From an uncultured Caulobacterales bacterium (GTDB lineage Bacteria; Pseudomonadota; Alphaproteobacteria; Caulobacterales; Maricaulaceae), in contig CALFVT010000004.1 of NCBI GenBank assembly GCA_937928165.1, positions 1-64,000 of the forward strand: a stretch of 64,000 nucleotides of DNA, written 5' to 3'. How positions within the stretch are numbered: the first letter of the stretch is position 1; each line of letters begins with the position of its first letter. The notes beneath the pieces were generated by a model. It ran no database searches. It was not told the origin of the DNA and saw only the letters and a program-made list of their open reading frames with translations. The position numbers and the translations under genes were made by a program. Of the stretch, positions 57,244 to 58,152 are shown piece by piece.

Positions 57244-57276
57244 TAATTATTTTCGAAAACCTTTTAAATTCAATGT

Positions 57277-57302
57277 ACGGACAGGAATGACGTCGCGTCC
57301 GT
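57277..57302 (+). promoter_or_regulatory. Inverted repeat upstream of the RHH/EF-hand gene
   Basis: ACGGAC at 57277-57282 and GTCCGT at 57297-57302 form an inverted repeat with a 14-base centre, in the 126-base gap before the next gene. It could be an operator. The short stem makes chance likely. Confidence 0.3.
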
Positions 57303-57369
57303 GCGGGCTTTGGCTTAAGCTTAGGGGCGAGATTGCATAATATTTCATTGTTCTGAAAAGGAGAATGTT

Positions 57370-58152
57370 ATGACGGACGACCACAAAGATAGGCCAGAGC
57401 CTTGGGAGAAGAAAAGTGAGCGCTTTGAAATTCGCTTGCCGTTTTCTAAAAAACAAGCCTTCCTTGAAGCCTGTGAAGCGCAAGGGGATACACCCAGTGA
57501 AGCTTTGCGGCGATTTATTCATACTTATTTGCGCCGCTCGGAAGAAGATAGCCTTGGGCCTGCACGGCGCAGGCTTCGCTATAAAGCGCGGCAAAACTGG
57601 GTGTTTGGATTATCTGGCGTTCTGGCTATTGGCGCGATGTCCATAGCGGGGCCGCAGGGCTGTGCGTCGATAAAAGCGCAAAAGATAGAGAGCCAAAGGC
57701 AGGCTTTGTTTACGGCTTATGATAAAGACGGCAGCGGCGCCCTAGAACGCGGCGAAGTCACAAGCAATGATAAGGCGCTTCATGATGTGTTAGATATTGA
57801 TGATAGCCAAACGCTATCTTTAGATGAGTTTCTTATACGCGGCCGAATGCAGCTTATGAAAAGCTATGAAGGATATGATACGGACAAACGATCACTTTAT
57901 CCGGACCCCTATCTGGATCGTGAGCTTGTTGTATTTGATTTAACCGATCATGAAAACATTGTTTTAAATCGCTGGAAACAAAATCCAGAGAACAATGTTA
58001 GAGATAAAGCGGATCGATTAATTTTCCGCCATTACCTTACAGGTAAGTTTCGAGGCTATTTAGGTGAAACAACTGTGAACTTTGATACGAATGGAGAGTT
58101 TGCAAGTATTACATTGCAATATGATAAGAGTTTGTTGAAAACTGATAATTAG
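57370..58152 (+). CDS. Membrane protein with RHH-like N-terminus and EF-hand pair
   Basis: A 260-residue protein of unusual make-up. Residues 18-56 (RFEIRLPFSKKQAF..., then EALRRFIHTYL) look like a ribbon-helix-helix domain, basic residues follow, a transmembrane helix spans about 77-95, and two EF-hand loops come next: 118-129 (DKDGSGALERGE, canonical) and 142-153 (DIDDSQTLSLDE, less regular). The C-terminal 90 residues are unrecognised. If inserted with the N-terminus inside, calcium could be sensed in the periplasm and DNA contacted in the cytoplasm; this is inference. AAGGAG lies six bases before the ATG. Confidence 0.85.
   Translation: MTDDHKDRPEPWEKKSERFEIRLPFSKKQAFLEACEAQGDTPSEALRRFIHTYLRRSEEDSLGPARRRLRYKARQNWVFGLSGVLAIGAMSIAGPQGCASIKAQKIESQRQALFTAYDKDGSGALERGEVTSNDKALHDVLDIDDSQTLSLDEFLIRGRMQLMKSYEGYDTDKRSLYPDPYLDRELVVFDLTDHENIVLNRWKQNPENNVRDKADRLIFRHYLTGKFRGYLGETTVNFDTNGEFASITLQYDKSLLKTDN

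Follow-up and report, generated by a model that had tools for sequence, protein, structure and literature searches.

One gene of the window, a 64,000-nucleotide stretch of contig CALFVT010000004.1 from an uncultured Caulobacterales bacterium, probably encodes an autoregulated transmembrane one-component transcription regulator that has the layout of ToxR and CadC and reads DNA with a ribbon-helix-helix (RHH) domain. Its 260-aa product comprises, in this order, (i) a polar N-terminus, (ii) the RHH domain, (iii) a basic linker, (iv) a hydrophobic segment, (v) an EF-hand pair, and (vi) a beta region (Table 1). The fold, the topology, a conserved operator, and the co-variation of reader and operator are supported by computation, and there is good indirect evidence for DNA reading at the gene's own promoter.

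Table 1. Coordinates of the window gene, its predicted domains and sites, and the related loci with operator-bearing neighbors
Feature	Position	Strand	Basis
CDS, 260 aa: RHH, membrane helix, EF-hand pair, C-terminal beta region	57370..58152	+	ORF call, relatives
Shine-Dalgarno-like GGAG	57360..57363	+	sequence; six bases 5' of ATG
Predicted RHH DNA-binding unit, residues 14-58	57409..57543	+	Pfam family matches, profile, AlphaFold, Foldseek, superposition
RHH residues 18, 20, 22	57421-57423, 57427-57429, 57433-57435	+	superposed on Arc 9, 11, 13
Candidate operator site 1, TGTACGGACA, 96 bp 5' of start	57274..57283	+	upstream dyad analysis
Candidate operator site 2, degenerate, CGTCCGTGCG, 22 bp past site 1	57296..57305	+	family +22 peak; weak here
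Predicted membrane helix, residues 77-95	57598..57654	+	AF2 model, charge pattern (N-in)
EF-hand loop 1, residues 118-129, DKDGSGALERGE	57721..57756	+	loop sequence, AF2 model, calmodulin superposition
EF-hand loop 2, residues 142-153, DIDDSQTLSLDE	57793..57828	+	loop sequence, AF2 model, calmodulin superposition
C-terminal region, residues 160-251	57847..58122	+	AF2 model, mostly beta, low to middling confidence
Short RHH-TM-EF gene and second signal peptidase I gene with operator	L071:6527-7306		
Further loci with the same pairing	L070, L078-L082, L090, L092, L100, L103, L104		
Kordiimonas-type adjacent exported HExxH protein, operator upstream	L060:6728-7837, L061:6639-7733, L075:6639-7745, L077:4274-5371		

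The gene is flanked by a 3-hydroxyisobutyrate-dehydrogenase-like gene and a convergent hemB-like gene, both named by sequence reading alone, and comparison of this neighborhood with the loci of relatives found no conservation. No sigma-70-like promoter scored on the + strand 5' of the gene. A plain secreted EF-hand protein made from an internal start was considered and rejected: the window protein has no Met between residues 1 and 89, unlike several relatives, in which an internal Met is present.

Taken singly, the window sequence falls under the Pfam cut-offs for both RHH (RHH_9, E 0.014) and EF-hand domains, and for this reason the caution of the sequence-only reading in its domain calls was justified. 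The RHH-like N-terminus, which that reading had proposed from pattern, is borne out by profile search, structure prediction, structure search, and superposition. In an alignment of 28 family proteins, members match the Pfam families RelB, RHH_9, RHH_1, ParG, NikA-like, and RHH_10, all of RHH type. A profile of 37 N-terminal segments compared with PDB had the DinJ antitoxin as its best match (9lew, E 2.2e-5), followed mostly by RHH chains (ORF56, VapB26, ParG, and RelB); the non-RHH proteins among its weak matches were two designed helical-repeat proteins and one KEOPS subunit. Foldseek with the full-length model returned mainly EF-hand proteins, with E no better than 0.1, and the RHH domain was therefore modelled and searched separately. 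The AlphaFold (AF2) model of residues 14-58, obtained with 67 sequences in the alignment and, as all RHH predictions here, for the monomer alone, has a pLDDT of 92, and nearly all of its Foldseek matches are RHH chains, Arc, CopG, PutA, and DinJ among them. With VIA-align, it superposes on Arc (1myl) with a Z of 6.7 and 1.1 A over 44 residues and also matches the PutA structures 2gpe and 2rbf; the top 30 matches are nearly all RHH proteins, each with a modest Z because the domain is so short. The strand-helix-helix fold of about 45 residues that is the hallmark of the RHH (MetJ/Arc) superfamily is predicted here with high confidence. In the Arc superposition, model residues 2-45 align with Arc 6-49, which places protein residues 18, 20, and 22 on Arc 9, 11, and 13; these Arc residues contact bases (Gln9 and Asn11 among them). 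Helix A of the RHH domain contains a cysteine, C35 (window 57472-57474), that 85% of the family retains; it may have a redox role or just fill the core.

The N-terminus is predicted to lie inside, since K and R residues are more frequent on the N side of the helix than on its C side in 81 of the 85 distinct relatives, equal in 4, and fewer in none. In the window protein, the N-side flank is strongly positive. This charge pattern supports the cytoplasmic N-terminus proposed earlier, with no relative pointing to an N-terminus in the periplasm. The predicted topology is ToxR-like, that is, an N-in DNA-binding domain, one helix, and a periplasmic C-terminal domain. In the full-length AF2 model (mean pLDDT 73.8), helix B continues into the membrane helix, and the confidence is about 50 over residues 81-100. 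In both EF-hand loops, the ligands at positions 1, 3, 5, and 12 are acidic or polar; position 6 of loop 2, previously called the weaker, is Q, not G. The predicted pair has the paired helix-loop-helix and 12-residue acidic loops of the EF-hand superfamily, and both loops are upheld by a pLDDT of about 90-96 over residues 111-150 and by superposition of residues 98-158 on a calmodulin lobe (Z 8.6, 1.3 A, 61 residues). Calcium sensing by the window protein is a plausible hypothesis. As a whole, the sequence-only reading of one chain joining a cytoplasmic DNA-binding end to a periplasmic calcium-binding end is partly supported, namely in its RHH fold, its N-in topology, and the existence of homologs with the same domain order.

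Such homologs are present in many genera. A scan of one genome per species yielded 120 relatives, and the best 79 of the 120 loci were taken. The named genera among these 79 are all alphaproteobacteria: Hellea, Ponticaulis, Henriciella, Hyphomonas, Parvularcula, Kordiimonas, Brevundimonas, Phenylobacterium, Caulobacter, Aquidulcibacter, Altererythrobacter, Sphingomonas, and Ruegeria. EF-hand loops follow the same RHH domain and helix in 70 of the best 79, which puts the domain combination beyond chance. The architecture is kept in Hyphomonadaceae, Parvularculaceae, Kordiimonadales, and Caulobacteraceae, and only single loci are labelled Altererythrobacter, Sphingomonas, and Ruegeria. By sequence, the predicted RHH-helix-EF-hand regulator is conserved across many alphaproteobacteria. 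The scan pattern demanded KK[ST]Ex[LI]E[IV]R[LV], and conservation at those positions is partly due to selection; K28, G39, S43, and R47, which lie outside it, are nearly invariant in the family. The nine proteins of the 79 that lack an EF-hand loop are four Henriciella proteins (198-204 residues) and others that are short or cut. Some relatives carry other domains instead of EF-hands, such as TonB_C (Pfam E 1.2e-7) in the one of the four Henriciella proteins examined (L044:5986-6582). The Brevundimonas/Phenylobacterium form is often about 103-125 residues long, with the RHH domain, the helix, and one or two EF-hand loops. The RHH module was found in 71 of 200 sampled genomes at order level and in 60 of 119 at family level, with up to six per genome; the window's own genome has a second RHH-TM member, which is without EF-hands (L024 / L107, G000:C2:475993-476124). 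At L004, the frame seems to depart from the family sequence past the RHH domain, and L009 has an in-frame TGA; both are possible pseudogenes or sequence errors.

The regulator probably controls its own gene via a conserved upstream palindrome, as suggested by counts of all 4-base dyads in the 180 bp upstream of 51 non-redundant family genes. TGTC-NN-GACA lies 5' of 19 of the 51 (0.1 in shuffles), and the next dyads, GTCC-GGAC (13) and GTGT-N4-ACAC (5), are parts of the same palindrome. The family candidate operator is TGTCCGGACA, which a second copy frequently follows at 22 bp, and the window form TGTACGGACA is its A-variant. The core of either form occurs exactly 5' of 20 of 52 non-redundant genes, compared with 0.01 in shuffles, and within one mismatch 5' of 29 of 52, compared with 0.68; in these 52 genes, the second copy gives a peak 22 bp downstream (4.2 sd). 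The looser TGTNNNNACA (TGTN4ACA) precedes 49 of 80 non-redundant family genes, where about 2.85 are expected. Exact sites number 32 in 20.5 kb of family upstreams versus 38 in 880 kb of surrounding sequence, and many of the latter precede an adjacent lepB or another neighbor. The A-variant is not found outside family upstreams in the 880 kb around the loci, and it recurs in Hellea relatives despite otherwise differing upstream sequence. The second member in the same genome (C2:475993) has TGTCATGACA 91 bp 5' of its start. In some subgroups the family gene itself is not preceded by an operator: many Brevundimonas-type members have the site at lepB and several Kordiimonas members at a neighboring gene; for a few members, the operator was found neither before the gene nor at its neighbors. 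The conserved candidate operator gives independent support to the DNA-binding reading of the RHH domain.

The operator core also varies with the predicted reader. Genes were classed by RHH residues 18 and 20, and operator cores were compared pairwise with 300 permutations. Cores are identical in 74-85% of same-class pairs versus 22-24% of different-class pairs in every identity band tested; the difference (74% versus 24%) holds even below 50% RHH identity, with relatedness only partly controlled. None of the 300 permutations matched the observed association, in which the T/S class dominates the counts. T/S18 is mostly paired with CCGG, V18 with CCCG, G18 with AAGG-like cores, and K18, in two genomes that belong to different families, with CATG. 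The R18 genes of the Hellea-type clade have ACGG, but three other R18 genes have CCGG (TGTCCGGACA), so that R18 does not dictate the core. Tandem paralogs of one locus carry different cores at L045, L048, L050, L056, and L064, and because of this a shared outside regulator would be hard to reconcile with the predicted operators.

We infer that the protein dimerizes on DNA, and a working mechanism may be outlined as follows. Two copies would pair through their RHH strands in the cytoplasm, and the paired domain would bind site 1 at its own promoter and probably also the degenerate site 2. The single N-in/C-out helix would tether the RHH domain to the inner membrane, placing the EF-hand pair and the C-terminal region in the periplasm. 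Occupancy of the EF-hands, presumably by calcium, or another periplasmic event would alter the geometry or stability of the dimer across the membrane and thereby change autoregulation, most likely repression.

Several other readings were weighed against this autoregulated membrane-bound regulator. A fortuitous match, with a protein that is either not RHH or not membrane-bound, would agree with the single-sequence Pfam scores; it is scarcely credible given the profile, the charge pattern, the AF2 and Foldseek results, the Arc superposition, and the recurrence of EF-hands among the relatives. A further objection is that the candidate operator could belong to another regulator. In this case, the protein would be a membrane-anchored EF-hand protein whose RHH domain only dimerizes or holds DNA at the membrane. 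Many RHH domains do double as dimerization units, but the operator center co-varies with RHH residues 18 and 20, the operators of paralogs differ, and the operator tracks family genes and their neighbors through varied gene neighborhoods, all of which make this reading quite improbable.

Neighboring genes in relatives bear on a further reading, in which the protein is coupled to export or proteolysis: the helix would be a signal peptide behind a cytoplasmic RHH domain, cleaved by signal peptidase I, and loss or accumulation of the uncleaved form would report export or peptidase capacity. The EF-hand part would then be a cargo or a folding gate, and the target in Caulobacteraceae would be the adjacent second signal peptidase. 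Of 49 non-redundant members, 30 indeed have a motif resembling a signal-peptidase site, P[STAV]xA, past the helix, versus 6.2 in shuffles. In Caulobacteraceae, the family gene and a signal peptidase I gene often lie tail to tail. Exactly two S26 peptidases (E below 1e-25) are found in each of the 15 Caulobacteraceae genomes tested that carry the short form, one of them within the locus beside the family gene by coordinates; G038 and G042, of the Caulobacteraceae group but listed as lacking the family gene, have one. Of 11 distinct loci examined (L007 and L078 being the same place), 10 have the operator before the adjacent lepB, eight of them with two sites (exact or with one mismatch) 21-22 bp apart. 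In Kordiimonas-type loci (Kordiimonadales), the operator lies before an adjacent gene for an exported HExxH protein of about 365 residues. However, the HExxH proteins score above no Pfam peptidase family's cut-off, the clade of the window protein has no consistent cleavage motif of this type, and no peptidase gene adjoins the window gene. We consider this reading unlikely. A general class of substrate-type sensors, in which an RHH domain before a signal peptide or anchor reports export or proteolysis and calcium-dependent folding of the EF-hands is the gate, is similarly doubtful. If it existed, the regulator in Caulobacteraceae would exert feedback control on a second, dedicated signal peptidase I, while itself carrying the cleavage-site motif of that peptidase.

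Two features of the relatives also qualify the membrane-bound regulator reading itself. The tether may not be permanent, since a signal-peptidase-like site follows the helix in many relatives, although not clearly in this clade. Likewise, the protein may respond to export or proteolysis instead of calcium, since TonB_C or other domains replace the EF-hands in some relatives and since, in two lineages, the probable target is exported and is a peptidase or resembles one.

PutA, a large peripheral enzyme with an RHH domain, is switched by proline and moves from DNA to the membrane. The window protein would share with it an RHH DNA reader with activity tied to the membrane, whereas only the window protein has a predicted integral helix and periplasmic domain. 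Arc, CopG, DinJ, RelB, TacA, and AmrZ share the RHH fold, palindromes at their own promoters, and strand residues aligned to Arc 9, 11, and 13. The Arc/CopG-type repressors and antitoxins are, however, soluble, and the antitoxins are paired with toxins, whereas the RHH domain of the window protein is part of a chain with a membrane helix, and a toxin gene was not observed. ToxR, CadC, and TcpP combine a cytoplasmic DNA-binding domain, a single helix, and a periplasmic sensor in one chain and read the promoter from the membrane, as the window protein would, but with other DNA-binding domains; instead of the winged-helix reader of the ToxR/CadC family proper, the window protein has a predicted RHH reader, with an EF-hand pair outside. 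The words 'ribbon', 'RHH', and 'CopG' are absent from the text of a survey of transmembrane transcription regulators (PMC10269533). EfhP (PMC9132961) and Caulobacter CaBP (PMC13171946) are periplasmic EF-hand proteins that are not described with a DNA-binding part in the available portions of these sources. Both share with the window protein EF-hands exported from a proteobacterial cell, to which the window protein adds a DNA reader. None of the open-licence papers searched contains both 'ribbon-helix-helix' and 'EF-hand', and regulators that combine RHH, helix, and EF-hands seem to be undescribed so far.

To our knowledge, the periplasmic EF-hand proteins described to date carry no output domain, which leaves the EF-hand route from extracellular calcium to gene expression largely open. 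Because the predicted chain carries both the EF-hand pair and the DNA reader, and each paralog comes with its own predicted operator, the link between calcium and expression can be tested directly. The family would also extend the DNA readers of membrane-bound regulators to the RHH fold, and the second signal peptidase paired with it in relatives gives a way into the control of signal peptidase expression.

The regulon is probably small, because operator counts per genome are near background: exact TGTACGGACA occurs 3 times in the window's own genome versus 4 for the reversed control, the other two copies lying in or beside unrelated genes, and the counts of TGTCCGGACA in 14 relatives are near those of the reversed control. 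In Ponticaulis, an unnamed gene of 142 residues located just 5' of the family gene (L035:5418-5846) is also preceded by the operator.
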